IMG/VR virus record: IMGVR_UViG_3300032322_000028
Location: 1-30,962 of that record
DNA length: 30,962 bases
Origin: a virus
Strand: one strand, 5' to 3'
Within the stretch, counting starts at the first letter, position 1. Every line of letters begins with the position of its first letter. The notes under the pieces are model-generated. The model was not told the origin of the DNA. It worked only from the letters and a program-made list of their open reading frames with translations, and did no database searches. The position numbers were made by a program, and so were the translations under genes. Of the stretch, positions 6,328 through 29,967 are shown in pieces.

Positions 6328-8441
6328 TTGCGGCCATCGGGTCTAACGTCGAGGCGAGGGCTACCAAGCTGCCATGTAGTCCCGATCTGGTTGGCTTCGA
6401 TCTTGATGGACATCTGCCGTCCACGCACCCGCGTATTGATCTGCCCCGTGAACTGGTCGATCTCGTAGGTCTTGCCACCAATTGTCTGGCTTGTGCCCGT
6501 TTGCACAACCGAGCCATCCGCGCTTCCCCCAACCGACAGCGGATTGTTGTATCCAGAGCCGGAGTTTTGCAGCGGCAGCAGCGTCATGGTGACAGCAGGA
6601 GCGCCCGCCGTCGAGCCACGGAACGTAACGTCAGGCAGCACCCGCCAGATAAACGAGAAGTTGTGCCCGTCATCAATGTCGAACTGCGAGGACATGATGT
6701 AGGAGTTGATCGGGGCGGGCGTTGCGGTTTCTTCGTCGTCTACCCCGTCTTCGTGGTTGACGAGGTTGTTGCTGTAGGTGGCCGCGACCGGGAAGTCTCG
6801 CAGGCCGGAATCAACCCAAGCCGTGCGAGCCAGAGAGCCGTAGTACCAAGCGCCCTCACCGCCGTTTTCGGCGTAGTTAAAAACCACGTACCTGTTTATC
6901 GTGCTGGAACCGGCGGAACAGTAGAACCACCAGACCTCGTTGAAACCCTCGTTGGTCGCGGCAAAAATCTGATCTGCCTGCGCCATGTTGATGTCGCTGT
7001 AGATGAACTTGCGCAGATCGCAGCGCAGCGTCGAGCTACGCCCGTCGTACTTGTAGAATTTGTCTATGCCCATCCAGTACACCACGCCTGCGGCGATTGC
7101 CGTTGCGTTTTGACTGATGATGGAGATGTTGTCCGTCAGTAGTTGTGAGCCCCAGACAATGGGCGGGCCCAGGTACTGAAGCGAATACAACGTGGAGTCC
7201 GTCCACACCAGAATCTCCTGGCGCGACTGAAGAGATGAAATGATCTTGGAGCCGTGCGACAGGCGCACAGAGCCTGCTTGGTTGGTGGCTGCGGGCGTCC
7301 ACATCACCGCGTTTTCCTGATCCGTCCACCGGATCAGCATGGGGTCTTGCGTCGTGGAGCCGTAGTCGTTTACACCGAAGGCAATGACGAACCGGCTCGT
7401 GTCCGAGATGATGAACGTGTTTTGCACCGTAGGAACGTCCGACGCACCGGCCAGTTGCGTGAGCGGGATGCCCCTTGGGATGATGGACTGGATGCCAGAC
7501 TGCGAGCCAGAGGTGTTGATCGCAGAGCCTGTGGCCGTAGACGCCACGTTAAACGTGGTGCCCGTGGAGTTGATTGCGTAGTACGTCTGCCCTGGGATGA
7601 GCCCGGTAGGCAGAGCGCCGGTCGTGTTGAATTGAATCGCCGTGCCGTTTGGCACATTGACCGTAGCCGTGACCACCGCAGGAGATGCGATGGAGATGGA
7701 GACCGTCTGGTTCAGCACCCCGATGTTGCTGTTCCAGTAATACATGAGCCCGCCACGCGGGCCGAAGATCAGATCCTGGCCGTAGTTGCTCTGCGTCCAC
7801 AGGCGGATGGAAACGTCAGAAGTCGTCCCGATGCCCCAGGTACCCGTGCCCCAGCCGCCACCACCCCAGCCCGAAAGCGCCACGGAGGTGGACGTACCCA
7901 CGTTGATCTCGTACAGCGCGTAAACCGCAGACCCGCCGCCAGTTGTGGTTGACCCGGCATTTGTCCCGGCATCAATGGTGTACGTCGTGCCTGTAGCGTA
8001 CGTGATCTGGTACGTGCCGTTTAGGTTCAAGCCGCCAACCGTCGTGGCGTTGCTAAACGTAACGAAGTCGTTGTTGACGAACCCGCCGCTTGCATCCGTC
8101 ACTGTAACGATGGACGAGCCGCTTTGCGTGGCAAACGGGTTGCTGAGCGTGTTGACTACGCGGTACGGCGTAATGTCGTTGTAAACGCCGCCGCTTTCGA
8201 TGTAGAACTTCAGGTGCGTGCCCACACCCATCAGGTTCAAACCGCCGAGCGTGACCCAGTTCCACAGCGAGCGGCAAACGCCCAAGAACGTGCTGGCAGA
8301 GATGCGCTTCCAGCCGCCGATAGCCTCGGGTGTTCCCTGACGGAAACGAATCTTTTCGGACTCGTACCAGCCGCCTTCCGCCGTATATCTGGTACCCTCT
8401 CTCCAGAGTCCTGGTTTTAGTTGCAGTTTCTTTAGCGGCAT
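6324..8441 (-). CDS. Tail nozzle / packaged-DNA stabilisation protein (P22 gp10-like beta-propeller), 705 aa
   Basis: The N-terminus (LKPGLWREGTRYTAEGGWYE, then KIRFRQGTPEAIGGWKRI) and the following WNWVTLGGLNLMGVGT match the pattern of P22 gp10-like nozzle proteins, which plug the tail below the adaptor and keep DNA in the head. Later strands DPMLIRWTDQENAVMWTPA, ILVWTDSTLYSLQYLG, VYWMGIDKFYKYDG and YVVFNYAENGGEGAWYYG are repeated propeller blades. Two inserted beta modules (about residues 108-170 and 240-305, with 'GLNLNGTYQIT' and 'GLIPGQTYYAIN') resemble modules in the 901-residue protein. The C-terminus (INTRVRGRQMSIKIEANQIG) is typical of the family. The gene follows the holin and has only a weak ribosome binding site (GGCGGA). 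The nozzle assignment is by remembered similarity and gene order. Confidence 0.85.
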   Translation of the reverse strand: MPLKKLQLKPGLWREGTRYTAEGGWYESEKIRFRQGTPEAIGGWKRISASTFLGVCRSLWNWVTLGGLNLMGVGTHLKFYIESGGVYNDITPYRVVNTLSNPFATQSGSSIVTVTDASGGFVNNDFVTFSNATTVGGLNLNGTYQITYATGTTYTIDAGTNAGSTTTGGGSAVYALYEINVGTSTSVALSGWGGGGWGTGTWGIGTTSDVSIRLWTQSNYGQDLIFGPRGGLMYYWNSNIGVLNQTVSISIASPAVVTATVNVPNGTAIQFNTTGALPTGLIPGQTYYAINSTGTTFNVASTATGSAINTSGSQSGIQSIIPRGIPLTQLAGASDVPTVQNTFIISDTSRFVIAFGVNDYGSTTQDPMLIRWTDQENAVMWTPAATNQAGSVRLSHGSKIISSLQSRQEILVWTDSTLYSLQYLGPPIVWGSQLLTDNISIISQNATAIAAGVVYWMGIDKFYKYDGRSSTLRCDLRKFIYSDINMAQADQIFAATNEGFNEVWWFYCSAGSSTINRYVVFNYAENGGEGAWYYGSLARTAWVDSGLRDFPVAATYSNNLVNHEDGVDDEETATPAPINSYIMSSQFDIDDGHNFSFIWRVLPDVTFRGSTAGAPAVTMTLLPLQNSGSGYNNPLSVGGSADGSVVQTGTSQTIGGKTYEIDQFTGQINTRVRGRQMSIKIEANQIGTTWQLGSPRLDVRPDGRK

Positions 8442-9880: not shown

Positions 9881-10197
9881 CACACGCTCCAGGGCAGCGG
9901 CGGCTGGATCACCGGGGGGTTCTTCTGCATCTCGATCTGCTGCGCCACGTTCGCCTCAGTGGCCTCCTTGGGCACGCCAGAGGCCCAGCACCACGACAAG
10001 ACTTGGTCTTGCGTCAGGTCAGCGTAGGGCGTGTAGGTGCCGTCAGCCTCGGGCGCTTGCGTGAACGAGCAGGTGCCGTACACCGTGCCCGAGAAGTCGT
10101 CCTGCGTGTCGGTGCAGCGCCAGCCGCACTCCAGCACCCACTCCGGGGGAGTGGCCGAGGTCGGGGTGGTCTTGAGCCATTCGATCTGCCAGTTCAT
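9880..10197 (-). CDS. Conserved small protein following the tail fibre, 105 aa
   Basis: It starts MNWQIEWLKTTPTSATPPEW and continues VLECGWRCTDTQDD, then a strand-rich part (GTVYGTCSFTQAPEADGTYT), and PYADLTQDQVLSWCWASG, ending with a Pro-rich tail (NPPVIQPPLPWSV). The layout 'PYADLT-x-x-Q-V-L-x-W' followed by a Glu/Ala helix and a 'PPLPW' end resembles small proteins found next to tail fibre genes, some of which act as fibre assembly chaperones or accessory caps. That role is inferred. The ATG overlaps the fibre stop codon (ATGA), which implies coupled synthesis. Confidence 0.8.
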   Translation of the reverse strand: MNWQIEWLKTTPTSATPPEWVLECGWRCTDTQDDFSGTVYGTCSFTQAPEADGTYTPYADLTQDQVLSWCWASGVPKEATEANVAQQIEMQKNPPVIQPPLPWSV

Positions 10198-13100
10198 GCT
10201 TGCCTTTCGAGTTGCGCCACGCGGGCGCGGAGGTCGGTGATGAGGGCTTGTTGTTCCTGAATGGCTTTCACAAGCGTGGGGATCAGGTTGGCGTTGACAG
10301 CCTTGTACGGTTCTTCGCCTTCAGGCGCGGGGTCTTTCCACTCACTGATCATGTCAGGGAAGACCTGCTCAAACTCTTGAGCGATGAAGCCCCGGTCGCC
10401 CTTGATGTCCTTGCCCTTGCCAGCCTTCCAGTCGAACTTGCGCGGCTTGAGAGCCATGATCATGCCAAGGCCGTCATCCAAGTCGCGGATGTTTTCCTTC
10501 AGACGCTGGTCAGAGATGGCAGTTATGGTCGTGTTGGTGGCGTTGATAACGCCTGCATTGGTTACATAGAACCGATAAGCAGAAGTTGTGAGGTTGTACA
10601 GAACATATGAATCAGATTCCGTACTTGTAATAACGCTGAAAACTTTTCCAGTTGGAAGGAATTTCACACCTTGCCCTGCGGCGGCACTTGAATTGTCCGT
10701 CCCCACCAGCAGATCACCCCCGCTCGTGATCCGGGCGCTTTCCGTCCAAGTGGCCGATAGCGTTCTTCGCTCAAAAACCAGCGGCGTATTTCCGGCACCT
10801 AAGTCCGGGCTACTGATGCGGTGTCCGTACCCGCTCGAAAAATCTGATGCTCTGAACTCGATTCCGCCCGTTGCGTTCAAGCTGCCCATGTTTGGGGCAA
10901 CCAAAATATTGCCGCCATAGGTGGGGTTCGCGGATGCGGTGGACCCGACTCCAACAGCTATTTGTGCCTGGGGGGTTGTAGTGCCAACCCCAAGCCTCCC
11001 ACTCGCATCCAGCGTCATCGCCTGCGTGAAGGAAATCGCGTTGCCTGCGGTGCCGGAGGGGGCGGTGTACCACTGGTGAGCTCCAGTGTCTTGATCGTAC
11101 TTTGCAGCAAAGTTGGTGGTTTTATATTTCCACGAGGTGTCGTAGTACGCATTTGTTGAAATAACACCGTTTATGCCTTGGAACGATACCGATCTTCCAT
11201 TAGGCAACTCAAAGAAGCCCGCAGCACCTCCCCAGTTACTCGGCGTCACCCCCAGGCCGAGGTTGCCGGAGGTGTCGAGGCGCATGCGTTCGGTGGTGCC
11301 ATTTGTGTTAAAAACGAGAAAGTCAGATGAAAATGTCAACTGACCGTAAGCACTTGTTGAGCGATTGAAACTTAAGATTGTCGGGTTAGAGGCTGTTCCA
11401 GTCGGGGCGATTTCAAGACCCGCCGCGCCTGCGTTTGACACTACAAACTTGTTTGAAGGCGAACTCGTCCCAATCCCGAGGTTGCCGGAGGAGTCGAGGC
11501 GCATGCGCTCGGTGCCGCCAATCTGGAACGCGGTCGCACCGCCGCCGTTGTCAATCGCCAGAGAGTTAGGGCTACCCGTCAGCGTGGTGCCGTTGTCCCA
11601 CTTGAGGCTTCCGACAATCCCGGCAGGCACATAAAACCCAACACTGCTCTGGTTGCCGTTCGGGCCTTGGAACCTTGCAACTTCTCCGGCAGAAGTGATT
11701 GCGACATGGAGTTTTACTCCCGGCGAACTCGTCCCAATCCCCAGCCCGGTGCCGGTGAGGCGCATGCCTTCGGAGCCGGAAACAGCAAAGATAATGTCTT
11801 TCCCGCGAAGGCTCAAATCAACCCATGCGCTTGTGTTGCGGTTGTACGAAGTGACGTAGCCGATGTTGGTGGACGTGTCTAGCTCGATGCCGTTTATGCC
11901 GTTGCTGACTACGGAGAACCTAGCGTTGGCGGTGTTAGTGGTTCCAATCCCGAGGTTGCCGGAGGAGTCGAGGCGCATGGTCTCTGACGGGGACGAGCCG
12001 GTGTTGAACAACACCTGCGTCGCATCAAATCTTAGATTTCCATACGCGCTTGTAGAGCGGTTGTAGACCTGCAACAAACCATTAGCGGGCACAAACTCTA
12101 AGCCCAAGGCCCCGCCATTGGAGACAACAAGCTTGTTTTGCGGATTATTCGTCCCAATCCCCAGCCCGGTGCTGGTGAGGCGCATTTGTTCGGAAGAATC
12201 AATCTCAAACGATGTAGCAGAAGCGCCGCCCACGCCGAGCCTAATTCGCTGTTGATTTGCGTTTCCGTAAGTGGAAGAAAGCGTCAGCGTTCCGGTAGCG
12301 CCAGAACTGCCGTAGGCAAACGCAGATAGGACTGCCTTGTTGCCGCTACCGTCGTTGTTCAGCAGCTTAATTGCGCTTTGAAAAGTGAGATCGGTCCCAT
12401 CAAACGTCAGCGCACTTCCCGTAGCCAGCGCACTTGTGCTGCTTGCGTAGACAACCCCATTGGCGGTGAAGCTCGTAAGTCCTGTACCACCGTTCGTCGT
12501 TGCCAGGGTGCCTGCGAGAGTGACTGCCCCCGTGGTGGCCGAGTTCGGTGTAAACCCAGTGGTGCCTGCACTAAAGGACGCAACCGTGCCGCCCGTTGTA
12601 GCCAGAGTGCCGCTAGTCGGGAACGTGACGTTCGTCGCCCCCGTGGTAGTCAGCGTCAGAGAGTTTGCCCCCGAAGTGGCAAGAGTAGATCCGTTGGCAA
12701 GAGTCAGCGTGCCCGTGGTGGTGCTGATCGTCAGGCCGTTGATGGACGTTGCAGTGGCTGCGCCGAGGACGGGAGTCGTCAGAGTCGGGCTCGTCGCCAG
12801 GACGTTGTTCCCCGTCCCCGTGTTCGTCACCGACACCACTTCCTTGCTGGCGTTCAGGGCCAGAGCGGTGGATGCAGTCAGCCCGGAAAGCGTCGTCGTA
12901 CCGGAAACCGTCAGGTTCGTAAACGTGCCCGGTCCACCCAGCGAACTGATCTTGACAAAGTCCGTGCCGTTCCACGCGCACACGGCAAACTCGCCAGCAG
13001 CAATCGACACGCCCGTCGTGGGGCCCGAGCCCCTGAGCGTGACTGCAAACCCGCCCGAGGTGGCGTTGATGACGATGTAAGCCTTGGACTGCGCCGGAAC

Positions 13101-13352
13101 CGTGATATTCCTTGCTGCCGCTCGTGCGCCCGTGCAGTTCAGGATCAGATACTGCGACGATGTCGCGCCCAGCACCGCGTTGGTGGTCTTGGTCAGCGTG
13201 ACATCCGCATCCGTCGAGAGCGTCTGCGTGCCCGCAATCGACGCGTCCAGATAGTTCGTGATGAAGTTGTTGACCGTGTCGCCCCAGGTGCCCTGGAGTT
13301 CACCCGTGACCGGCAGCGCGAGACCGAGAAGGTTGGTGTATGCGGTAGGCAT
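10194..13352 (-). CDS. Tail fibre with C-terminal S74 intramolecular chaperone, 1052 aa
   Basis: Host-recognition fibre. The N-terminus (MPTAYTNLLGLALPVTGELQ, then GTWGDTVNNFITNYLDASIA) is the likely virion-attachment domain. Residues about 140-330 are Thr/Gly/Ser-rich shaft (TLTLANGSTLATSGANS). From about 390 to 850 six related modules each contain a form of MRLDSSGNLGIGTSSP. The last 106 residues are a Peptidase_S74 domain: SDQRLKENI begins at Ser947, and Lys952 is five residues on, the spacing of the Ser-Lys dyad in the K1F endosialidase chaperone. RGFIAQEFEQVFPDMI and YKAVNANLIPTLVKAIQEQ are further hallmarks. The family trimerises the fibre and then cuts itself off just before that Ser. 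The final QALITDLRARVAQLERQ is a coiled coil. The ATG overlaps the upstream stop (TAATG). The receptor is unknown. Confidence 0.93.
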   Translation of the reverse strand: MPTAYTNLLGLALPVTGELQGTWGDTVNNFITNYLDASIAGTQTLSTDADVTLTKTTNAVLGATSSQYLILNCTGARAAARNITVPAQSKAYIVINATSGGFAVTLRGSGPTTGVSIAAGEFAVCAWNGTDFVKISSLGGPGTFTNLTVSGTTTLSGLTASTALALNASKEVVSVTNTGTGNNVLATSPTLTTPVLGAATATSINGLTISTTTGTLTLANGSTLATSGANSLTLTTTGATNVTFPTSGTLATTGGTVASFSAGTTGFTPNSATTGAVTLAGTLATTNGGTGLTSFTANGVVYASSTSALATGSALTFDGTDLTFQSAIKLLNNDGSGNKAVLSAFAYGSSGATGTLTLSSTYGNANQQRIRLGVGGASATSFEIDSSEQMRLTSTGLGIGTNNPQNKLVVSNGGALGLEFVPANGLLQVYNRSTSAYGNLRFDATQVLFNTGSSPSETMRLDSSGNLGIGTTNTANARFSVVSNGINGIELDTSTNIGYVTSYNRNTSAWVDLSLRGKDIIFAVSGSEGMRLTGTGLGIGTSSPGVKLHVAITSAGEVARFQGPNGNQSSVGFYVPAGIVGSLKWDNGTTLTGSPNSLAIDNGGGATAFQIGGTERMRLDSSGNLGIGTSSPSNKFVVSNAGAAGLEIAPTGTASNPTILSFNRSTSAYGQLTFSSDFLVFNTNGTTERMRLDTSGNLGLGVTPSNWGGAAGFFELPNGRSVSFQGINGVISTNAYYDTSWKYKTTNFAAKYDQDTGAHQWYTAPSGTAGNAISFTQAMTLDASGRLGVGTTTPQAQIAVGVGSTASANPTYGGNILVAPNMGSLNATGGIEFRASDFSSGYGHRISSPDLGAGNTPLVFERRTLSATWTESARITSGGDLLVGTDNSSAAAGQGVKFLPTGKVFSVITSTESDSYVLYNLTTSAYRFYVTNAGVINATNTTITAISDQRLKENIRDLDDGLGMIMALKPRKFDWKAGKGKDIKGDRGFIAQEFEQVFPDMISEWKDPAPEGEEPYKAVNANLIPTLVKAIQEQQALITDLRARVAQLERQA
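11251..12193 (-). repeat. Long imperfect direct repeats in the fibre shaft
   Basis: The DNA encoding the MRL-x-x-SGNLGIGT modules is repeated. A 36-base segment at 11470-11505 recurs exactly at 11944-11979, and a different segment at 11731-11765 recurs with one mismatch at 12151-12185. A further diverged copy lies near 11251-11290. Copies are separated by about 420-475 bases, so each repeat pair spans two modules. The repeats are in frame with each other. Confidence 0.85.
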
Positions 13353-13765
13353 TATTCAAACCTGATGAGTGCTGTGGTGGCAGTAGCCACGGGCAGGGTA
13401 ACCACGAACGGGCCGGAGGCCGTCTTGTCGTCACCGAAGTCGATGACTGCGATGGACCTGTCGGCCTTGCTGGCGTTGTAAACCAGCGCCCCACGGCAGA
13501 TGAAGGAAGCCCCCGACCACGTGGGATTGTTGAAGGTCAAGTACGCCGTGGTCCCGGAAAGCGCCAGCACTACCCCAGTCAGCGTCACGCCACCCGCAAC
13601 ATACCCAGCACCAACCACCTCGTTGGAGGTCGTGTAAACCGTCGTGTTGGAGTCCAGCGTGGCGTTGCCCGTGTACAGGGCAAACTTCAGCGTGTCCGTA
13701 TCAAGGTCGTGAATACCCTGCCAGGACTCCAGTTTGAACGATGAGGTCAGGCCCTGGAGAATCAT
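13352..13765 (-). CDS. Conserved beta-rich virion protein, 137 aa
   Basis: It starts MILQGLTSSFKLESWQGIHD, then LDTDTLKFALYTGNATLD and TTVYTTSNEVVGAGYVAGG. Next come TAYLTFNNPTWSGASFICRG, ALVYNASKADRSIAVIDFG and DDKTASGPFVVTLP. The pattern is that of a single beta-sandwich domain with no enzyme motif. I recall similar proteins next to fibre genes in many environmental phage genomes, usually called structural or tail proteins. The start overlaps the adaptor stop (TAATG) and its own stop overlaps the fibre start in the same way, so the three are co-translated. Confidence 0.85.
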   Translation of the reverse strand: MILQGLTSSFKLESWQGIHDLDTDTLKFALYTGNATLDSNTTVYTTSNEVVGAGYVAGGVTLTGVVLALSGTTAYLTFNNPTWSGASFICRGALVYNASKADRSIAVIDFGDDKTASGPFVVTLPVATATTALIRFE

Positions 13766-14424
13766 TACACCACCTGCGTCTTAGGCAGTCCGTTACGGTA
13801 TCCATCCCCGCGGTTTTTCCCGTCAAAAAGCATCTTGACAAGCGCAAGCGACTGCTGGAACTCTTTGTCGTACATCGCAATGATGTCGGGCTCCTGCTTC
13901 ATAAACCTAGCCGTTTCAACAAGCACCGCGTTAAACAGCACAGACTCGTAGTTATCACCAAGCCAGGAGCGACCAGATACTGCCGTCGTGATGCTCTCCG
14001 GATAGGCGTTGTAGGCCACCTGAAGGTTCAGCGTGGCCCCCGGGGTGGGGGCCAGTTCCAGCGTTTGCACAAGCGGGTTGCCCTGCGTGCCGTATAGCGC
14101 GTAGTACCGAGGCGTGCCGGTATCGGTTGGGTCAGGATAAGCAGACCGCAGAAAATTCACATCCTTGTTCAGGAGGTATTCCCAGTCCCCCGTAGCCAAC
14201 ACCACGGCTACGCTAAATGCGGAGAGGAAATCTGTCGGGAGGCTGACGGTGCTGGTCCCAATGACAAGCGGAATAACCGAGTTCTTTCGAGTAATGGGCG
14301 CTTGCGTAGCGTTGAAGATTTTCTGTTCGGCAAGCCGAACCATCGTGGCGAAGTCAGTCGCTGAGAACGAGTTCTCAACGTAGTCCTGAACCGCAGTCTG
14401 CAACTGCGTATAGCTAAGCGCCAC
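13765..14424 (-). CDS. Phage adaptor-like (head-to-tail) protein, 219 aa
   Basis: The sequence begins ALSYTQLQTAVQDYVENSFS, then MVRLAEQKIFNATQAPITRK, followed by strands VIPLVIGTSTVSLPTDFLSA and a long helical tail (NYESVLFNAVLVETARFMKQ; MYDKEFQQSLALVKMLFDG). This order, a helix pair, a small beta part with 'SLPTDFL', and C-terminal helices ending in 'F-x-x-x-L-x-L', resembles SU10-type adaptor proteins that sit on the portal or tail tube. The start codon is GTG (14424-14422), with a GAGG about 9 bases upstream. The next ATG is at residue 28 and would remove the conserved N-terminus. The adaptor role is by remembered similarity. Confidence 0.82.
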   Translation of the reverse strand: MALSYTQLQTAVQDYVENSFSATDFATMVRLAEQKIFNATQAPITRKNSVIPLVIGTSTVSLPTDFLSAFSVAVVLATGDWEYLLNKDVNFLRSAYPDPTDTGTPRYYALYGTQGNPLVQTLELAPTPGATLNLQVAYNAYPESITTAVSGRSWLGDNYESVLFNAVLVETARFMKQEPDIIAMYDKEFQQSLALVKMLFDGKNRGDGYRNGLPKTQVV

Positions 14425-15195: not shown

Positions 15196-15894
15196 TTAGC
15201 CACCAATAAACATCTGACGCGGGACGAAACGTACGGCGGACTTGTCTCTATCCTCGGTACTCGCCAAATCCCACGCCTCGTCATACTGCGCCTTCAGCAC
15301 CTGCATCCTATCCGCAGCGCCAGGAATCTTCATCGACAGGTAGTAGGCAAGCCCCGCGACGAGCGCATTGAGGAAGCGGAACGGGATGTCCTGCGTGTAC
15401 GTACCGCCTGCTCCAGCGTCTTGAATCCTGCGCAATCGCCAGTACACGAACGTGTACGTCTGCGAGCTATCCGGCACCGGCCAGACCGTGAACTGCGGAG
15501 CCGCTGCTTGGCGGTTGATCCAGACTTGGATCGGGCGTGCTTGTTGGAGCTTGTTGGGGATCGAGGAGTACGTGGAGACTGAAATCCGGGTAATTGTCAG
15601 ATCCACCTGCGTGGAAACATTGCCCGCACCGGTACGGATCACATGCTCGATCAGGTCCACCGTGTCAGCAGGCAGCGTGTACGTCGCAGTGCCGGGAGAC
15701 AGAACTTGTTGACCCTGCTCAATAGTCCAGAGGTTAGTCCCCCGATTCGCCCAGTCTGCAAAGAGGAGGTTTAAAGACCTACGTGTAGTACGTAGGTCAT
15801 ATCCTGTCCTTAATTCTGCCCCGCATCTTTCCCACGCCTCCTCCGCAATTTCGTTGAGATCGAGGTCAAATGTTGCGGTCCCGGAGGTTGTCAT
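15196..15894 (-). CDS. Head-to-tail connector / tail accessory protein (P22 gp4-like), 232 aa
   Basis: The protein begins TFDLDLNEIAEEAWERCGAE, then LRTGYDLRTTRRSLNLLFAD and WANRGTNLWTIEQGQQVL. It continues with TATYTLPADTVDLIEHVI, VSTYSSIPNKLQQARPIQVW and FTVWPVPDSSQTYTFVYWRL. The C-terminal part is helical (FRFLNALVAGLAYYLSMKI; MQVLKAQYDEAWDLASTEDR). This helix / beta-sandwich / helix layout is the one I associate with gp4- or T7 gp11-like adaptors that form a ring under the portal. The start codon overlaps the upstream stop as TAATG. The general role is probable and the exact family less certain. Confidence 0.83.
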   Translation of the reverse strand: MTTSGTATFDLDLNEIAEEAWERCGAELRTGYDLRTTRRSLNLLFADWANRGTNLWTIEQGQQVLSPGTATYTLPADTVDLIEHVIRTGAGNVSTQVDLTITRISVSTYSSIPNKLQQARPIQVWINRQAAAPQFTVWPVPDSSQTYTFVYWRLRRIQDAGAGGTYTQDIPFRFLNALVAGLAYYLSMKIPGAADRMQVLKAQYDEAWDLASTEDRDKSAVRFVPRQMFIGG

Positions 15895-20379: not shown

Positions 20380-20859
20380 TTAAGCGCTGACCGGATTGCG
20401 CGAACCGTCAGAAGCGCGTTGGGCGTAGGCCACCGTGACGATTGCTCGGCCCGCAGTTGCAGACGCCACCGTGATGGCATTGCGCACGTAGACCGGCGTA
20501 TCTGCCGTGGTCGAGGTCTGCCACGCCAGTTGCGTTGCGGCAGTTGCCGTACCCGAGAAGCGGCCACCAGCGCCCGTGGAGACGCCCGCCATCAGTTCAG
20601 CGCCACCAGAGGTCGAGCCCACCGAGATGGTCATCGTCGCGCCACCAGCCACCGCCACCACTTGGTCAACGAGGATGTTGATGATCTGCGCACCAGCCGG
20701 GAGATACCCCAGGAGCGCGTCGTAGTTGCCGATGGCGGTCGGGTTTGCCAGATTCCCAGTGTCGAACGACTGGGTCAGCGTCACGAGGCCGGTGTTTTCG
20801 GTTGCGCCTTCGCGCACCGTACCCGCACGAATGGGGCCAGAGAAGGTCGAGAAACCCAT
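20380..20859 (-). CDS. Virion protein, possibly head decoration, 159 aa
   Basis: The protein begins MGFSTFSGPIRAGTVREGAT, then GLVTLTQSFDTGNLANPTAI, LLGYLPAGAQIINILVDQVV and ATMTISVGSTSGGAELMAG. Later strands are QLAWQTSTTADTPVYVRNAI and GRAIVTVAYAQRASDG. The strand pattern and 'SGPIRAGT...G...LVTLTQS' opening resemble phage decoration or stabilisation proteins. GAGGA lies about 7 bases before the ATG. The gene sits at the other side of the homing endonuclease from the major capsid gene, so it was probably next to the capsid gene before that insertion. Confidence 0.82.
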   Translation of the reverse strand: MGFSTFSGPIRAGTVREGATENTGLVTLTQSFDTGNLANPTAIGNYDALLGYLPAGAQIINILVDQVVAVAGGATMTISVGSTSGGAELMAGVSTGAGGRFSGTATAATQLAWQTSTTADTPVYVRNAITVASATAGRAIVTVAYAQRASDGSRNPVSA

Positions 20860-20966: not shown

Positions 20967-22001
20967 TTACGCAAGTCCTGCTTTGCGACAAGCGGTACAC
21001 GCGCCTTTTGTCAAGCGCGGGGCGATATGCCCATGCTTGCAGGGCTCTCCGGTGAAGTAGTGCTTCTCGCCCTTGTCCTTGGCTCCCTGCCGCGTGCGGG
21101 GCAGGTGTTTGAACTCTTCCGGAATCTCAACGGACGCAGGGGGCTCTACAGGCGCGTCTGCGTAGCAGAACAGCCATCCGGCCAGCTTACCCTTGGTAAT
21201 CGGCTTCTGAGCCTTCATGGTCCGGACAAGCATCTGATACGGCACGCCAAGCGTTTCACCGGCAAGGGCAGTTCCTGGGAAGTCTTGGCGCGACCCGTCA
21301 GGCAAGATGGCGTAGACCGGACGGCGCATCTTCTCCTTGGACGCTTCGGTGTGGGCGCGGCCTGCCCAATGCCCGTAATGCCCTGCGGCGGCAGCGGCTT
21401 GGATCTTGGCGCGGCCTTCTTCCGATACCTTGCGCCCTGGGCCTTTGGGTTTGCCTCTTTGAGCGTCACCGATCTTTTGTCTGGTTTCTTGGCTGCGCTC
21501 CTTGCCCTCCCAGTACGCAACAGGGTTGGCCTTTTTGCTGGCGCTGATCTTGGCCTTGGTTTCATCTGTGTGCTGCTTTCCAACGCGGGGGTGGTTAAAG
21601 TAGTCCTCGGCGTAGAAATCTTTGAGCGTCTGGGAAATCTGTTGCTTTTGTTCTTCTGATACGGGCCTACCAAAGTTTGGATGCCTTTCTTTTTGGATAC
21701 CACGCATGGGCGCACCCGACCTCAGCCCCGCGTTGTAGCAATAAGGTTTGCCAACATGCTGCACAAGCCACAAATCTTCGGCCTCCTGCAAAGACTCTTC
21801 GTCTGGGATCTGCGCAACTACTTTAAACGCAAACTTTTCTTCGCCGTACTTGTTCCACGCGGCTTGCAAATGCAGGCAGTGATGAACCCCGCGCCTTAGT
21901 TTATTTCGGTGCGTTCTAAACCGCTCTCTTTGGTTGCTTGTACTTCCGACATAGAACTTATCGTTCACGAGGTTGATGATCTTATAGATGACTTGGGTCA
22001 T
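20967..22001 (-). CDS. Free-standing GIY-YIG homing endonuclease with NUMOD3 motifs, 344 aa
   Basis: These enzymes cut a specific site in rival DNA lacking the gene so that repair copies the gene in. The N-terminal catalytic domain (1-92) has VIYKI (Tyr6), FYVGS (Tyr17), an Arg-rich helix (RERFRTHRNKLRRG), ESLQEAEDLWL with Glu73/Glu75 and CYN (Asn90). A string of NUMOD3-type DNA-binding motifs follows: GRPVSEEQKQQIS (111), GKQHTDETKAKIS (141), SQETRQKIGDAQRGK (170), GRKVSEEGRAKI (189) and GRAHTEASKEKM (214). Residues 228-280 look like a NUMOD-type helix-turn-helix. The C-terminus has a Cys/His cluster (C321-x-H-x-H, C335-x-x-C338). All key residues are present, so it is probably active. CGGAG lies 6 bases before the ATG, and it has its own promoter. 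It does not interrupt a gene. Confidence 0.92.
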   Translation of the reverse strand: MTQVIYKIINLVNDKFYVGSTSNQRERFRTHRNKLRRGVHHCLHLQAAWNKYGEEKFAFKVVAQIPDEESLQEAEDLWLVQHVGKPYCYNAGLRSGAPMRGIQKERHPNFGRPVSEEQKQQISQTLKDFYAEDYFNHPRVGKQHTDETKAKISASKKANPVAYWEGKERSQETRQKIGDAQRGKPKGPGRKVSEEGRAKIQAAAAAGHYGHWAGRAHTEASKEKMRRPVYAILPDGSRQDFPGTALAGETLGVPYQMLVRTMKAQKPITKGKLAGWLFCYADAPVEPPASVEIPEEFKHLPRTRQGAKDKGEKHYFTGEPCKHGHIAPRLTKGACTACRKAGLA

Positions 22002-22132: not shown

Positions 22133-23041
22133 TCAGGCGCCAGGGCTTCCAAAGGCTCCCAAAGGATCAGAGACTCCAAAGCTGTAGCGCTCTCGCGCCT
22201 TGTACCGGCTATTGCCGGTGTCGAAATCGCCGTCCATCGACGTAGACATCGCCACGCGCACGAAGTGCTTCAGGCCGTTGGGAACGTCGGTCTTGAGGAA
22301 CCATGCGTTCGTGTCGGTCAGGAAGTGGTTCACGGCGTACCCTTCCGGGATCGAGCCGTTGCTCTTCAGCGCGTTGATGTCGTTGTCCGTGGTCCCGACG
22401 CGCAGAGAGGTCTCCAGCAGGCGGGTGGCGACGAACATCAGGCTCGGCGGAACGATCAGCTTGCGGGGCTTGGCTGCGATCAGCAGGCCACGCTCGTCCG
22501 TCCACGCGGCGATCTGAATGACGGCGGCTTCCAGGGAAGTCTCGTTCAGGTCAGCGCCAGTGGTCGGGCGGTTGCTGTTGGTGCCACCGTTCACGAGCGG
22601 GTGATCCGTCGCAAACAGGCTCTTGCCGTCGCCGTACGTGACGGCACCGGAGAACCCGCTGTTCAGGATGGCCGCAGCCTTCACCTGCTTCGTGTACGCC
22701 ATAGCCCGAGCGAGGGCCTTGGTGTAGCGCGCCGAGAGACTGTCGTACAGGTTGTCTTCCACCGCCTCTTCGGTGATGGCGAAACCCATAGCGATGGTCT
22801 CGTGGTTGTACCGCGCCGTCCAGGCTTCCTGGGCGTTGTCGTAACGAATGGCTTGGCCTTCGTTCTTGACGGGTGCGGCGCTGAAGCCGGAGAGCTTGGT
22901 CTCCTCTTCAAACGAGCGCTCGGAGGTCTCCGTTTCGTAGATCTCCTTGTGCTCTTCGCCGTAGCGCTTGTACTCCATGCCGAACAGCGCGTTCAGGCCG
23001 GGGAGCAGTTCCTTGAGTAGTTGGGCACGAGAAATTGCCAT
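22133..23041 (-). CDS. Major capsid protein (Mu gpT-like HK97 fold), 302 aa
   Basis: This forms the icosahedral shell. The protein begins MAISRAQLLKELLPGLNALF and has KRYGEEHKEIYETETSERSF. The E-loop region is around 50-80 and the helix DNLYDSLSARYTKALARAMA (96-115) is the spine-helix candidate. The block ILNSGFSGAVTYGDGKSLFA then TDHPLVNGGTNSNRP (125-159) is the 'dGk-x-LF-x-x-HP' signature I associate with Mu-like gpT major head subunits. RKLIVPPSLMFVATRLLETS and the C-terminal ERYSFGVSDPLGAFGSPGA fit. AAGGAG lies 7 bases before the ATG. A strong terminator follows. It sits directly after scaffold, unknown and decoration genes, the usual head order. Confidence 0.9.
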   Translation of the reverse strand: MAISRAQLLKELLPGLNALFGMEYKRYGEEHKEIYETETSERSFEEETKLSGFSAAPVKNEGQAIRYDNAQEAWTARYNHETIAMGFAITEEAVEDNLYDSLSARYTKALARAMAYTKQVKAAAILNSGFSGAVTYGDGKSLFATDHPLVNGGTNSNRPTTGADLNETSLEAAVIQIAAWTDERGLLIAAKPRKLIVPPSLMFVATRLLETSLRVGTTDNDINALKSNGSIPEGYAVNHFLTDTNAWFLKTDVPNGLKHFVRVAMSTSMDGDFDTGNSRYKARERYSFGVSDPLGAFGSPGA

Positions 23042-23899: not shown

Positions 23900-24367
23900 T
23901 TACTCCGAAAGTTGGGAACCGCGTCCGAACTTCACCTTGCTCTGGCGCTCGCTGAAGAGCGGCATACGAGGGTTGTTCTCGCGCATGAACGCGTTGTCCA
24001 CTGAATCCATCTGGCCCTCCGCCTGACGGCGGTAGAACTCATTGCGTTGTTCAGCGAACTCCGCAGGGATTTTGCACAGCATCAGTCCGCCGACCTGAAT
24101 GGTGTCTGCGAACCGCCCCTTGATCTCAGAACCAAACACCTGCACTTCCGGGTGGTCCGAAGCCTTGACGGGCTCGTACCCTTCGCGCAGTTTGGAAGAG
24201 ATATTGCTGGGGTCGTCGGTGCCGAGGGTGCTGATACGAATCCACCGATACACGTAACCCGGCTCCGGATTCGGATCGGGAAGCAGCGACGGCGGGGCCC
24301 ACTTTTTCGCCCTTTCGGACTTTGCGCGAGTTTCGAGTTCGCGGGGGGCACGGGTATTTTCAGCCAT
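23900..24367 (-). CDS. Conserved head-region protein, 155 aa, function unknown
   Basis: The protein begins MAENTRAPRELETRAKSERA, then KWAPPSLLPDPNPEPGYVYR and WIRISTLGTDDPSNISSKLR. It continues GYEPVKASDHPEVQVFGSE, TIQVGGLMLCKIPAEFAEQR and NEFYRRQAEGQMDSVDNAFM. The N-terminal 30 residues are charged and likely disordered, the middle is a small mixed domain, and the end is helical. The gene overlaps the scaffold stop by 8 bases, with GAGGAAA upstream. I recall homologues in the same place between scaffold and capsid genes, without an assigned role. Confidence 0.83.
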   Translation of the reverse strand: MAENTRAPRELETRAKSERAKKWAPPSLLPDPNPEPGYVYRWIRISTLGTDDPSNISSKLREGYEPVKASDHPEVQVFGSEIKGRFADTIQVGGLMLCKIPAEFAEQRNEFYRRQAEGQMDSVDNAFMRENNPRMPLFSERQSKVKFGRGSQLSE

Positions 24368-25280
24368 TGTCTTTCCTCATTTGTTCTGCCACGGAGCGAG
24401 CGTAGACTTCCAGGGGAACTCCAAGCCGCTTGGCAAGGTTCACTTGAGATTGCGTCAGCACGATTTTCTTGGGCGCGGTGCTGCGGGTTGCGGGGGCCAC
24501 TACAGAAGACTTCTTTGCGGGCTTCTCAGAGGTAAACGCATCTGGGAAAGTCCTGCGCATTTCTGCGTCAATCTGCTTGTAGTAGTCCTCGCTTGAAGGG
24601 TTTACGCCTTTCTCGACAAGCTCGTTGTGTACCTCAAGCGCCATCGCAGTCATTCGACGGTTTGACCCAAACCACGAATTGGCTTCCTGCCACGCAAGTG
24701 CCTTGGGGTCGGGCTGCGGTGCCGCTGGAGCGGTTTGTACCACAGGCTCTGCGGGTTTTGCAACAGGGGGCCTGAAGTTATTTACCCGCTCGGCCCGAGA
24801 TACCGCCTTAGCCAGCTCTTCTTGCGCCGATACGATACCGTCCGTATCAAACGCCTCATGCGCTTCCTTGAGTTTCCTCTTGGCCTCGTCTACCTCGGTG
24901 GCAACCACCTTTTTGGCCTGCTCAAGGAGCGCTTCCTGGCCCTTGCCCAAACTGCCCTGGAGTTTCTTGTTCTCCTCGACCAAAGCCTGAGCAAGGCGTA
25001 GGGCTTCTTCCTTCTCGCGCTGGGCAGCTTCCTTGGCGCGGCGCTCCTCGTGGTATCCCTTGGAGAAGTGCTGGATGCGCTTCTTGACACCCTCGGAGTA
25101 TTGCGCCAACTCCTCGTCGGTCACATCAGCCGGAGCATCTTTCATGGGCGCACGCCCACGGTCCTGCTCGGGCGTGTCGTCTACGACCTCGATTTCTGCG
25201 CCTTCACCGGCCTCGATTTCGTACTCCACCTTTTCTTCGGCGGGCTTTGCCTGCTCGTCCGGGAACTTGAATTCAGACAT
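24360..25280 (-). CDS. Capsid scaffolding protein, 306 aa
   Basis: Scaffolds guide capsid assembly and leave or are degraded before DNA entry. The sequence has an acidic, disordered N-terminus (EYEIEAGEGAEIEVVDDTPE), long coiled coils (VKKRIQHFSKGYHEERRAKE; REKEEALRLAQALVEENKKL; EVDEAKRKLKEAHEAFDTDG), a Pro/Ala linker (PVAKPAEPVVQTAPAAPQPD), and a small C-terminal helical domain (SQVNLAKRLGVPLEVYARSV) that would contact the capsid protein. The composition, length and position just before the capsid genes are typical. AGGAG lies 6 bases before the ATG. No protease domain is seen. Confidence 0.88.
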   Translation of the reverse strand: MSEFKFPDEQAKPAEEKVEYEIEAGEGAEIEVVDDTPEQDRGRAPMKDAPADVTDEELAQYSEGVKKRIQHFSKGYHEERRAKEAAQREKEEALRLAQALVEENKKLQGSLGKGQEALLEQAKKVVATEVDEAKRKLKEAHEAFDTDGIVSAQEELAKAVSRAERVNNFRPPVAKPAEPVVQTAPAAPQPDPKALAWQEANSWFGSNRRMTAMALEVHNELVEKGVNPSSEDYYKQIDAEMRRTFPDAFTSEKPAKKSSVVAPATRSTAPKKIVLTQSQVNLAKRLGVPLEVYARSVAEQMRKDNG

Positions 25281-25289
25281 TGTTACTCC

Positions 25290-25688
25290 TTAAACCCTCT
25301 TCACACCGCGCGGATCTTGAACCACCGCCTCGACCGAATCGTCGTTGATGATCCGGAATTCCTGCCCGTGAATCTTCATCCGGGTGCCCGTGTTGGGGCG
25401 AACCAGAACGAAGTCTCCAACCTTGCAGGAGGGGCCGGAGGGGAAGCGCAGGGGGTCTCGATAGGCATCAGGGCCCATCTTCATCACGAACAACACGGGC
25501 GATAGCACTTCCTCGTATTGCACCGTCTGCCCCGCCTTGACTATCCCGCTTTCGTACTCCTCTTCCGCACGCGGCACGGCGCACAGGAGGTGATACGTCA
25601 CAGGATCGGGCACCTGTCTGGCCTTTTCGGCCTCCGTTGCTGGGAGCGTGGAAACGCTTTCCCCATCGCTTAGGAGTAGTTCACTCAT
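25290..25688 (-). CDS. GroES-like co-chaperonin, 132 aa
   Basis: GroES-type proteins cap GroEL and help fold substrates; in phage T4 the analogue gp31 folds the capsid protein. Here VTYHLLCAVPRAEEEYESGI (30-49) fits the first strand and mobile loop, with GIV (48-50) at the place of the GroEL-binding tripeptide. PVLFVMKMGPDAYRD (64-78) matches the 'G-x-V-x-x-VG' region. CKVGDFVLVRPNTGTRMKIH then GQEFRIINDDSVEAVVQD (88-125) matches 'VGD-x-V-x-x-x...G-x-x-x-x-x-dG-x-e-y-x-i-x-x-e-D-I'. About 28 N-terminal residues are extra. The start at 25688 has GAAGGA at 6 bases; the longer frame overlaps the 62-residue gene and was rejected. It sits between portal and scaffold, consistent with capsid folding. 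Confidence 0.8.
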   Translation of the reverse strand: MSELLLSDGESVSTLPATEAEKARQVPDPVTYHLLCAVPRAEEEYESGIVKAGQTVQYEEVLSPVLFVMKMGPDAYRDPLRFPSGPSCKVGDFVLVRPNTGTRMKIHGQEFRIINDDSVEAVVQDPRGVKRV

Positions 25689-25737: not shown

Positions 25738-25926
25738 TCAATCTTCCTCTTGGAGTTTCTTTTGCAGGTCGATGATGTGGTTGAAGGCAAAAGACAACCC
25801 CCGAATCTCTCCGCACAGGTTTCGGTACTCGTCAAAGTCCTTTGCCGCACCTGACACAACTGTCTGCGCAAGAACATCGCGGCGCTCTTCGATTTCTTTC
25901 AGAACGCGATCAAATACTGTGGACAC
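25738..25926 (-). CDS. Small conserved helical protein, 62 aa
   Basis: The start codon is GTG (25926-25924), with AAGGAG 6 bases upstream inside the end of the portal gene. The protein reads MSTVFDRVLKEIEERRDVLA, then QTVVSGAAKDFDEYRNLCGE and IRGLSFAFNHIIDLQKKLQE. It is nearly all helix, with two likely helices around a short turn. I recall close relatives right after portal genes in environmental phages, with no known function. A portal- or scaffold-associated role is possible. Confidence 0.82.
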   Translation of the reverse strand: MSTVFDRVLKEIEERRDVLAQTVVSGAAKDFDEYRNLCGEIRGLSFAFNHIIDLQKKLQEED

Positions 25927-25929
25927 CTA

Positions 25930-28404
25930 TTACTCCTTGGGTTGAGCGGGCTTCTGCGCCTTCATGATCGCCTGCTGTGCTTGTTGGCGCATCTTCAACT
26001 GATGCGCCTGCTCTTTTTGACGAAGCTCTTGGTTGGACTTCGCGGCCTTGGCTGCGAGTTCCTGTTGCGACATCATGGCCTTAAGCTGGGGGTTTTCCCC
26101 CTGCTTGCGCTGCGCTTCCAACTGAAGTCGAGCCTGCTCGATCTGCAACTTGCCCTGCGCGATCTGGAAGTCCCTCATGCTGTCGGCTTCCTTGCGCTGA
26201 AGCTCTTGAGCCTTTAGCTGAAGCTCCATCTGGGCCATCTGAAGCTCAGGGTTCTGCGCCTGTTGTTGAGCCTGCTGCTGTGCAAACATGGCTTGGTTCT
26301 GCACCATCGTTCTCTGTGCAGCGGCGGCGATCAGCGGAGCCAGGGCCTTCTCGTCTTCCGGCGCGATGGGGGCGTTGTTCTCTTCGTCCAAAGCGGGAAG
26401 AGGAACGCCAAGCTGCATCTCGACTTGGGCGCGGTACGCAAACGCAGCGTGCTCGGCAATGTGCGCCATGAGCGCCGCCATCATCTGCTGGGCCATCGGG
26501 TTTTGACCCAGGACCGCCGCGATGTTGGGGTCTTGCATGAACGCTTGGTGCGTCATCATGTGGGCTTGATGGTCTTGATAGGCAAACGCCTTGATCGGCT
26601 CCATCCGCATGATCGCCATGTTCTCCGTCACCGGATCGCGTGGCTTCTGATCATCGTCAATGGGCACCAGCTTGTCTGCGTTCTTGATCCCCAGCACCTC
26701 CAGCATCTGGCGGTGAAGCTGGGGGAGGTTGTAGATCTGCGGAGCGCCTTGGGCCAACTGAAGCGCGGCTTGGTACTGCATGATCCGCTGCGCCATCGTG
26801 GCCGCGTTCGGATCGGACACGGGGATGACCTCCACCATGTCGTAGTCGCTTTGCTTTACACCAGGGTTCCCGCCCTCTGGGGTGTACGAGTATTCCGAGG
26901 GGGTGAAGTCGCGGATGATGGCCTTCAGGAGCTTGAACTCCATCCGCAGGCTGGCGTGGACCCGGGCCTGGACGGCGGACATCGTTTTAAGCTGCCGCTC
27001 CAGAATTGCCAGCGTGGTTCCCACCGGGGCCTGGGCCGACATATCGCTGACTTTTAGGTCAGCAACCGAGGCAAGACGGCGTCCGTCTTCCGTGACCCGC
27101 TCCAGAAGCCCCGCCAAAACTTGGCTCGGCTCCTTGTACGGCAAGGACATGATGTTGTCCCTAACCGTCCCGCTGGGGATGTCCACATCCCTGAACTCGC
27201 CCGGAGCGATGGGCGTGTCGTCGCCCTTGATACGCAAGCCCCGGCTCTTCAGACCCCCGGGGAGATTGGACAGCGTCCCTGCATCGACAAGCTGCCGAAT
27301 GATCGAGGTACCCGCACGGGCGTAACCGCCGATCAGGTGGATAAACCCTAGGCCGTACGCACCGAAACCGGGGATGTACGTGTACTGGACGAAGTGCTGG
27401 CGCTTGAGGCGCTTTTCATCGTCTTCGTTCCAGTTGCGCCGGATGGCAAGGACTTTCTGAGTCCCCCTGTCAATCGTGATGACGTACGGCAGCGCCACTT
27501 CATCTTCGTCTTCGCCCAAGTCCCAAGCGGCGTGGACCTCGTATAGTTGGTAGCGGTCGTCGTCCGTCAGGGAATACCCTTGGTCTTCTGCCTTCTTCTT
27601 CTCAATGTCAGAGAAGAACTGCGTCGGTTCACCTAAATCCGTATCCAAATAAAACCCGGAAACTTGAAGGCGTTTAATTTCATTCTTCGTCTTCCTCATT
27701 ACGTGCGTCACGCGCTCGGCTGTGTAAACGTTTGACGCGCCGTAGGGAATGATCAAATCTTCTGCCGGGATGAACGGGGCCGCAGGCATATCCGTGTTGG
27801 GGTCCGGATAGAGCTTCTTGAACGCCGCGCCGATGAGCCCAAGGGAGAACAACAGACGCTCGTGCTCTGAGCGGTAGTCGATCATCTTCTCGGTCAGCCA
27901 CAGGTTCATGTCCTCGCGGACACGGTCGGCGGCTTCCTCCTTCATGCGGTCAATCGCACCCATGATCTGCGTCTTGACCGGGCCTTGAGCGGGGAAAGTC
28001 TCCGTGATCATCTCTGACTGGAACCGCACCGCCGCCTCAGTGAGGAGGGGCGAAAAGACCCCGCAGGCACCGTTCCAGGGCTCAGTGCGCTCCTCGTACT
28101 TCATCCCCAGGACTTCCAGGCCCTTGACGTACATCTCCACCCAGTCCTTGCGGGAGTTGATGTCTGCCTCGATTAGCTCCATGAGTTCAGAGCCAAGCGT
28201 CTCCAGCTTGTCTGAGTCGAGGGTTTCTGCGAGGTTGGCACTGAATTCATCGGAGAGCGCGCCCTCGTCGGGCATGAGGTCGATCTCAACGCCTCCGGCA
28301 CGGAGGGTTACGTCCTCCGGATCTTCAATTTCAATTTCAATCGCAGGCCCGTCCATGAGGGCGGGGTCAAAAGCGGCCAGTGCGGAGTCAATATTCGTTG
28401 CCAT
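25930..28404 (-). CDS. Portal protein, long P22-like type, 824 aa
   Basis: The portal is the dodecameric ring at one capsid vertex through which DNA enters and leaves. The N-terminus is acidic (AIEIEIEDPEDVTLRAGGVE). The conserved portal core includes RKDWVEMYVKGLEVLGMKYE, RTEPWNGACGVFSPLLTEAA and VRFQSEMITETFPAQGPVKT (85-145), then ERLLFSLGLIGAAFKKLY, YTYIPGFGAYGLGFIHLIG and RDVDIPSGTVRDNIMSLPYK. A very long Gln/Ala-rich helical tail (about 690-824: QMELQLKAQELQRKEADSMR; AQGKLQIEQARLQLEAQRKQ) would build a barrel extending into the capsid as in P22 gp1. AAGGA lies before the ATG, which follows the terL stop after 9 bases. The length (824) exceeds that of most portals because of this tail. 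Confidence 0.9.
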   Translation of the reverse strand: MATNIDSALAAFDPALMDGPAIEIEIEDPEDVTLRAGGVEIDLMPDEGALSDEFSANLAETLDSDKLETLGSELMELIEADINSRKDWVEMYVKGLEVLGMKYEERTEPWNGACGVFSPLLTEAAVRFQSEMITETFPAQGPVKTQIMGAIDRMKEEAADRVREDMNLWLTEKMIDYRSEHERLLFSLGLIGAAFKKLYPDPNTDMPAAPFIPAEDLIIPYGASNVYTAERVTHVMRKTKNEIKRLQVSGFYLDTDLGEPTQFFSDIEKKKAEDQGYSLTDDDRYQLYEVHAAWDLGEDEDEVALPYVITIDRGTQKVLAIRRNWNEDDEKRLKRQHFVQYTYIPGFGAYGLGFIHLIGGYARAGTSIIRQLVDAGTLSNLPGGLKSRGLRIKGDDTPIAPGEFRDVDIPSGTVRDNIMSLPYKEPSQVLAGLLERVTEDGRRLASVADLKVSDMSAQAPVGTTLAILERQLKTMSAVQARVHASLRMEFKLLKAIIRDFTPSEYSYTPEGGNPGVKQSDYDMVEVIPVSDPNAATMAQRIMQYQAALQLAQGAPQIYNLPQLHRQMLEVLGIKNADKLVPIDDDQKPRDPVTENMAIMRMEPIKAFAYQDHQAHMMTHQAFMQDPNIAAVLGQNPMAQQMMAALMAHIAEHAAFAYRAQVEMQLGVPLPALDEENNAPIAPEDEKALAPLIAAAAQRTMVQNQAMFAQQQAQQQAQNPELQMAQMELQLKAQELQRKEADSMRDFQIAQGKLQIEQARLQLEAQRKQGENPQLKAMMSQQELAAKAAKSNQELRQKEQAHQLKMRQQAQQAIMKAQKPAQPKE

Positions 28405-28413
28405 GTTGTTTCC

Positions 28414-29967
28414 TTAATAGTATGCAGCGCGCCGCATGCTGCGGAACTGTTTTGGCTCTTCCGGCTCATCAGAGGGGAGTCTGATAAACCCGCCGTTGCG
28501 CATGCGCTGAAGCGCCTGCGTGCATGTATCCACATAGTCGTCGTGGTCCCCGGCGGGGAACGACGCGACTTCCTCGATTACCTCTCGTGCCCATCTAGTA
28601 TCGGGAGCCCAGACGCGGCCCGAGGCGAAGATATCAGAAACCGCATTCAGGCGTGCAACTTTGTCTGTCGAAGAGCCGAGTTTACCTCTGGAAGGACTGA
28701 ATTCCCCGATTGGTATGCCCATCGCCCGAAGTTCCTGAATAAGCGGCGCGCCTGCGGCTTTCTTTTCAATCAAGCACGCGTCTGGCTCCCATTCCTTGTA
28801 ATACTCGATGGCTTTCTTCTTCAAATCAGGGAATGACCACCGGCCTTTAATAGCGTCGAGGAGAATAATGTGCGCATTGTCGTTATCCTCTTCGTTGAAC
28901 CACACGCCCCACGTGGTGCAGGCGCTGTAGTCAGCGGAGGTCTTGGTCTCGTGCGCAGTATCCCATGACTGGATGATGTACTCGCACTTGGGCGGCGTCT
29001 CGGGCTCCCATATCTGCCACATGTCCCGCTTGATGACTGCCGCCACTTCGGATGTGGGGCTCTGCATGTACTGCGCCTGCCAGAAGCGCGGGTCCATGCC
29101 TGCGCGCTTGGCTTGAAGCTGCTCCAGGGGCCACTGCTCGGGCCACAGCGACTTCTCCTTGTCCGTGTGCTCGTACAGGATGGCCGGAAGCTCCACGATC
29201 TCCCATCGGTCAGCGTCGGGATTGAGCGCTTGGTGCTTGATCAGCATACCCGTGAGGTCAAGATTCGACCAGCGGGTCATGATCACGATGATTGCGCCCC
29301 CAGGCATGAGGCGCTGGAGAGGGCCGGTCTGAAACCAAGACCACGCGGCATCAAAAGGCGTGCGCGTACCCGCCTTCAAGTCCTGCTCAGAGTGCGGATC
29401 GTCAATAACGAAGAGGTCCGCGCCCCGCCCTGCAATACTACCACCCACGCCCACCGCGTAATACTGCCCACCGGCAGTTGTAGACCACTTTCCAGCCGCT
29501 TTTTGGTCTTCCGCAACCTTGGTTTTGGGAAAAAACGAGGGGAAATCTTCGCCAGAAATCAGATTTTTGATGCGCCGACCGAAATCTTCAGACAGGGACG
29601 CAGTATGCGTGCCCATAATGATCTTTTTCTGAGGAAACTTGCCTAGATAATATGCTGGAAATAGGTAGCTAGAGAACTCCGACTTACCCATACGAGGCGC
29701 TATGTTAATTATAACCCTCTTTTTTTCTCCCGCAATTACTGCGTCAAATATTTTTGCTAGTTGCCTATGATGCGCGCCTTCCTTGAAGCCGGGGTATATG
29801 GCGTGGGCAAAGCCCAGCAGGCTGTTTTGCGCGGATACGATGCGATGCCTGCGCTCGCGTTCTTCCAGAAGATCGAAAAGCTCCATTTTCTCCTTGACGG
29901 AGAGCGTGGGCAGCGCGGCGTGAAGCGCTTGAGCCTCTTGCGGCGTGAGAAAATCAGGCAGACGCAT
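28414..29967 (-). CDS. terL: Terminase large subunit, 517 aa
   Basis: TerL is the ATP-driven packaging motor and DNA-cutting nuclease. The ATPase domain shows Walker A APRMGKS (90-96, Lys95), Walker B LFVIDD (185-190) and the coupling motif IVIMTRW (227-233). The RNase-H-like nuclease domain shows IIQSWDTA (Asp336), ACLIEKKAAGAPLIQEL (Glu401) and GDHDDYVDT (Asp476/477/480). Length is normal and all key residues are present. The start overlaps the upstream small-subunit stop by 14 bases, and no strong ribosome binding site is seen, so coupled translation is likely. The class of packaging (pac or cos) cannot be read from this sequence. Confidence 0.95.
   Translation of the reverse strand: MRLPDFLTPQEAQALHAALPTLSVKEKMELFDLLEERERRHRIVSAQNSLLGFAHAIYPGFKEGAHHRQLAKIFDAVIAGEKKRVIINIAPRMGKSEFSSYLFPAYYLGKFPQKKIIMGTHTASLSEDFGRRIKNLISGEDFPSFFPKTKVAEDQKAAGKWSTTAGGQYYAVGVGGSIAGRGADLFVIDDPHSEQDLKAGTRTPFDAAWSWFQTGPLQRLMPGGAIIVIMTRWSNLDLTGMLIKHQALNPDADRWEIVELPAILYEHTDKEKSLWPEQWPLEQLQAKRAGMDPRFWQAQYMQSPTSEVAAVIKRDMWQIWEPETPPKCEYIIQSWDTAHETKTSADYSACTTWGVWFNEEDNDNAHIILLDAIKGRWSFPDLKKKAIEYYKEWEPDACLIEKKAAGAPLIQELRAMGIPIGEFSPSRGKLGSSTDKVARLNAVSDIFASGRVWAPDTRWAREVIEEVASFPAGDHDDYVDTCTQALQRMRNGGFIRLPSDEPEEPKQFRSMRRAAYY

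Follow-up and report, generated by a model that had tools for sequence, protein, structure and literature searches.

Why would a phage encode a lid for a protein-folding chamber among the genes that build its head? Bacteria close their protein-folding chamber with GroES, and a sequence-only reading of the present window, an IMG/VR virus record of 30,962 bases with its structural genes on the minus strand, had placed a GroES-like co-chaperonin inside the head gene cluster and proposed that the capsid or another large virion protein depends on it. Here we ask whether the gene is what it seems and which protein such a lid would most likely serve.

Family, fold and anatomy of the GroES-like gene

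The open reading frame call and its translation confirmed the gene at 25290–25688 on the minus strand and its claimed length of 132 aa. The open frame continues upstream of the ATG at 25688 to position 25877. The ATG at 25688 was preferred because nearly all of the closest 80 relatives align from residue 1 of the 132-aa form and because a Shine-Dalgarno-like AAGGA lies 6 nt upstream, and the longer ORF starting at 25877 was dropped on the same evidence. Comparison with relative L002 gave a dN/dS of ~0.07, indicating strong purifying selection on the gene; the value for a second relative, L026, was disregarded because the sequences were out of register. A tRNA search and an Rfam search of the window returned no tRNA and no Rfam match. 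The gene and its parts are:

25290–25688, minus strand: Cpn10/GroES-family co-chaperonin, 132 aa, 14.6 kDa, pI 5.0 (PHROG 3188, profile against GroES chains, AlphaFold2 model with PDB matches, tblastn to annotated phage GroES)
25695–25699, minus strand: AAGGA, Shine-Dalgarno-like, 6 nt upstream of the ATG (sequence)
25614–25688, minus strand: N-terminal extension, residues 1–25, outside the GroES barrel (structural matches start at residue 22–28)
25539–25547, minus strand: GIV, residues 48–50, where the GroES mobile loop has its GroEL-binding tripeptide (conservation in relatives)
25422–25475, minus strand: segment corresponding to the GroES roof, residues 72–89, rewritten as GPDAYRDPLRFPSGPSCK (near-invariant alignment columns)
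25293–25316, minus strand: C-terminal tail, residues 125–132 (DPRGVKRV), with P126 invariant (alignment; the Cpn10 domain match stops short of it)

The protein is a member of the Cpn10/GroES family, PHROG 3188, and a chance match is excluded. It matched the PHROG 3188 “co-chaperonin GroES” profile at E = 5e-9 over residues 28–124, and all 46 aligned relatives matched this profile as well. Taken alone, the window protein reached E = 0.0042 and 17.5 bits against Pfam Cpn10 (PF00166), under the gathering score of 21.1; the same Pfam model was matched by 44/46 aligned relatives, the best at 3.5e-13, and a profile built from 46 diverse relatives covered the whole domain of solved GroES chains with E-values down to 9e-11. 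The AlphaFold2 (AF2) single-chain model, with a mean pLDDT of 83.8, adopted the GroES beta-barrel fold, and its best PDB matches were all Cpn10 proteins, led by 8wuc_a (Z 9.9, rmsd 2.9, 92 residues). T4 gp31 scored below the GroES chains (1g31, Z 7.5; 2cgt, Z 7.8), and the best unrelated PDB chain reached Z 6.4. Profile, fold and synteny thus bear out the proposed GroES-like co-chaperonin inside the head cluster. Weak phmmer matches of the window protein to lysostaphin were rejected as a short chance match. Relatives are encoded in more than 600 IMG/VR stretches, and the family is already known and annotated in public phages, phage lids of this kind having been known before.

The GroES domain occupies residues 26–124, and the motif from which the family had originally been read, VGDFVLV...G...K.HG.EFRII..DSVEAVV, is found in the sequence. 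So is the GIV tripeptide at the mobile-loop position, which is kept in kind across the family: G48 is invariant and residues 49 and 50 are always hydrophobic in 249/249 distinct relatives. The GroES of Alcaligenes phage QDWS535 (3531–3872) carries ~7 extra residues ahead of the mobile loop compared to the others. An N-terminal stretch of 28 phage-specific residues had also been proposed; phage-specific it is, but the barrel starts near residue 26, leaving an extension of ~25 residues, which varies in length between branches and has low pLDDT at residues 1–7. This extension is less conserved than the family-specific roof segment (residues 72–89) and short C-terminal tail. The family consensus at the roof position reads G-x3-Y-x-D-x3-F-P-x-G-P-x-C-K, and the single-chain AF2 model predicts an ordered coil there (about residues 72–92, pLDDT ~95), with no beta-hairpin.

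The head genes and their capsid family

The head genes surrounding the GroES-like gene, all on the minus strand, are:

28414–29967, minus strand: terminase large subunit (PHROG 38, E = 4e-105)
25930–28404, minus strand: portal protein, 824 aa, 92 kDa (PHROG 1216, E = 1e-25)
25738–25926, minus strand: 62-aa ORF separating portal from GroES and conserved within the freshwater branch (tblastn synteny, 131 loci)
24360–25280, minus strand: 306-aa protein directly downstream of GroES, probable scaffold by position only (PHROG 28737, function not annotated)
22133–23041, minus strand: major capsid protein of 302 aa and 33 kDa, the suggested principal client (Pfam Phage_capsid_4, E = 1e-13; Mu-like gpT, E = 9e-11; PHROG 371)

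The earlier placement of the gene between portal and scaffold is correct as to position, but the 62-aa ORF intervenes after the portal gene and the scaffold role is assigned by position only. The 306-aa protein adjoins GroES in 300 loci, and the full order of terminase, portal, 62-aa ORF, GroES, 306-aa, 155-aa and 280-aa proteins and major capsid protein recurs in ~300 loci, as far as the contigs extend. Phages MinM2, HTVC027P and DSL-LC04 show the same order; in some of them, additional small genes follow the portal gene ahead of GroES. We identify the capsid protein by profiles only, because its AF2 model reached just pLDDT 38; phmmer of this protein against the PDB gave no useful match. A Cpn60/GroEL gene was absent from all 30 related records searched (21 plus 9 further capsid-family phages), and the lid therefore presumably uses host GroEL.

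Several other genes of the window deserve mention. Just downstream of the capsid gene lies a GIY-YIG/NUMOD3 homing endonuclease (20967–22001, minus strand), relatives of which occupy that place in only some related contigs by tblastn. Still within the structural region, a 159-aa protein (20380–20859, minus strand) has a weak Rz-like spanin PHROG match (3e-6), and a lysis role for it there is doubtful. Two separate proteins (13765–14424 and 15196–15894, minus strand) match the Pfam SU10 adaptor family, which suggests that one phage carries paralogous tail adaptors. A 1052-aa fibre-like protein (10194–13352, minus strand) has an S74 intramolecular chaperone domain at its end, and a 257-aa protein contains three tandem in-frame copies of a 45-nt unit at 2702–2845 (SVPGDVSRDYNPDVV repeats).

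The association of the lid with one capsid family was followed from the capsid side. A tblastn search with the window capsid protein yielded 21 phage records, or 15 distinct genomes after near-identical ones were merged, and Cpn10 was present in 15/15 of these, down to ~27–30% capsid identity. Six of the genomes were matched by the window GroES in tblastn; Pfam Cpn10 was run over the whole of each of the remaining nine, all nine giving a protein above the curated cut-off that also matches PHROG 3188. In seven of these nine the gene precedes those for the scaffold-like and capsid proteins. It is relocated upstream of the terminase in vir526, and ct7ZZ929, with the same capsid family, carries a divergent cpn10 (400–864) near a single-stranded DNA-binding protein gene, outside the head cluster. 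Caulobacter phage GB2A gp089c (6266–6697), annotated as hypothetical, is a Cpn10/GroES protein by Pfam and PHROG.

In contrast, Cpn10 was found in 0/15 control phages, of which 12 have related terminases and fall outside the capsid match list and three come from the same spring-water study. A conservative Fisher test, 12 against 15, gave p ~6e-8, a value that overstates independence, the genomes being related. Among IMG/VR loci with enough upstream sequence, GroES accompanied the window-type capsid gene in 60/60 cases (67/69 when nine annotated phages are included, two of them with the gene elsewhere), and the Caulobacter-type capsid gene in 77/77 loci with enough flank. More distant capsid relatives had Cpn10 in 3/3 records longer than 40 kb and in 2/12 shorter fragments, which cannot settle absence. 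The presence of Cpn10 in every near-complete capsid-family genome checked suggests that these phages fold their shell with a lid of their own. The sequence-only reading had held that the capsid depends on a cap from the phage, and the 15/15 against 0/15 distribution supports this only indirectly. Its appeal to another large virion protein as client is an argument that is not needed, and the major capsid protein, at 33 kDa, should itself fit an ordinary GroEL–GroES cage. Neither the capsid–GroES pairing nor its survival after gene relocation is described in the literature searched, a body that leaves out most subscription journals.

The proposed client of the lid

Family, GroES fold, mobile-loop signature, head-gene position, lack of a phage GroEL gene in the records searched and constant capsid-family company were established by computation. 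The explanation that we favour, and regard as quite probable, is that the gene encodes a phage Cpn10/GroES co-chaperonin, probably a heptameric lid on host GroEL, most likely serving the major capsid protein. The subunits would assemble into a heptamer that may dock on host GroEL via the mobile-loop G-I-V tripeptide; the phage lid would replace host GroES in late infection, and phage proteins would then fold inside a GroEL cage whose roof is altered. The client would most likely be the major capsid protein, the product of the fourth gene downstream.

Three observations count against the capsid as client. A mirror-tree analysis of distance correlations did not pick out the capsid protein, GroES giving a higher partial correlation with the portal (0.46) than with the capsid protein (0.35); a 33-kDa capsid protein should fit the normal cage; and Cpn10 was seen in just 2/12 of the shorter fragments with more distant capsids. 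The first two agree with a general substitute for host GroES that would keep GroEL working for all late phage proteins, including portal and tail proteins, whenever the host protein is scarce or incompatible, with no special capsid client; so does the finding that gp31 can stand in for GroES with every E. coli client (PMC6318259). We treat this as a serious rival and a real possibility, if one that falls short of probable; it would not predict a lid in 15/15 genomes with one capsid family against 0/15 controls, even though a related terminase is present in 12 of the controls. The capsid linkage could also reflect co-inheritance of a gene block instead of a folding need, with Cpn10, perhaps of minor activity, kept merely because portal and scaffold genes flank it. 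The gene order conserved in almost all loci is what such a block would give, but strong purifying selection (the dN/dS above), the persistence of Cpn10 at other places in vir526 and ct7ZZ929, and phage CRP-901, in which the portal lies elsewhere yet GroES remains by the scaffold and capsid genes, make this explanation improbable; in ct7L0027 the portal is distant as well. Finally, the rewritten roof, the extended termini and the proximity of the portal gene could point to a GroES fold with a new job, as a component of the virion or an assembly platform, that has lost GroEL binding. Retention of the GroEL-binding tripeptide in every relative would be unexpected if binding were lost, and we consider this explanation very unlikely.

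Returning to the lid on host GroEL that would serve the capsid protein, a further-reaching proposal is that the Phage_capsid_4/PHROG 371 capsid lineage obligately needs a phage Cpn10, and that the altered lid changes the chemistry or opening of the roof, not the size of the cage. We offer it tentatively, with more doubt than confidence. Phages of the lineage are recorded from Cyanobacteria, SAR11, Roseobacter, Caulobacter and Alcaligenes, and one of its viruses has been assigned to a methanogen. An action on the roof is proposed here because the putative client is just 33 kDa, a size at which the enlarged cage suggested for T4 gives no obvious reason to encode a lid. Cage enlargement as the general purpose of phage lids would also come into question if the client fits the normal cage.

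The phage genome records and literature searched give GroES as a core gene and do not state its client. That the lid is constantly paired with one capsid family, in freshwater and marine phages that are widespread, recasts the question of why phages carry GroES as a testable pair of one lid and one capsid protein, and cultured members of the pairing exist in Caulobacter phages RW, KcrB and GB2A and Alcaligenes phage QDWS535.

Comparison with known phage and bacterial lids

The nearest known counterparts are the PHROG 3188 GroES proteins of HTVC023P-type pelagiphages (HTVC023P, HTVC027P), roseophages CRP-901/902, cyanophages MinM2 and Pag-Yong1, and DSL-LC04, which belong to the same family and are likewise encoded just upstream of a scaffold-like gene, with the same capsid family downstream. 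A published set of 82 HTVC023P-type genomes has 13 core genes, a co-chaperonin GroES among them (PMC9599517). The window protein shares only 28–50% identity with these proteins by tblastn; its N-terminal extension is shorter than in the marine branch, and its mobile loop reads E-S-G-I-V-K in place of K-T-K-G-G-I-V-L.

With bacterial GroES/Cpn10 (PF00166), the window family shares the beta-barrel, the position of the mobile loop and a whole-domain profile match. The window protein is longer, however, at 132 aa compared to ~95 aa, the difference lying in extra N- and C-terminal pieces, and the roof hairpin of bacterial GroES appears in the model to be replaced by a conserved Y-D-FP-GP-C coil.

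T4 gp31 shares the phage-encoded Cpn10 fold with the window protein (Z 7.5–7.8) at ~16% identity in the structural alignment. It works with host GroEL to fold the capsid protein gp23 (~56 kDa), and it is without the GroES roof loops, its cage being ~8% larger for gp23 (PMC6318259). Because this family member lacks the roof loops, a roof hairpin is not required for membership of Cpn10. The two phage lids thus differ both in the roof, missing in gp31 and rewritten in the window protein, and in the capsid protein that accompanies them, 56 kDa in T4 and 33 kDa in the window phage.
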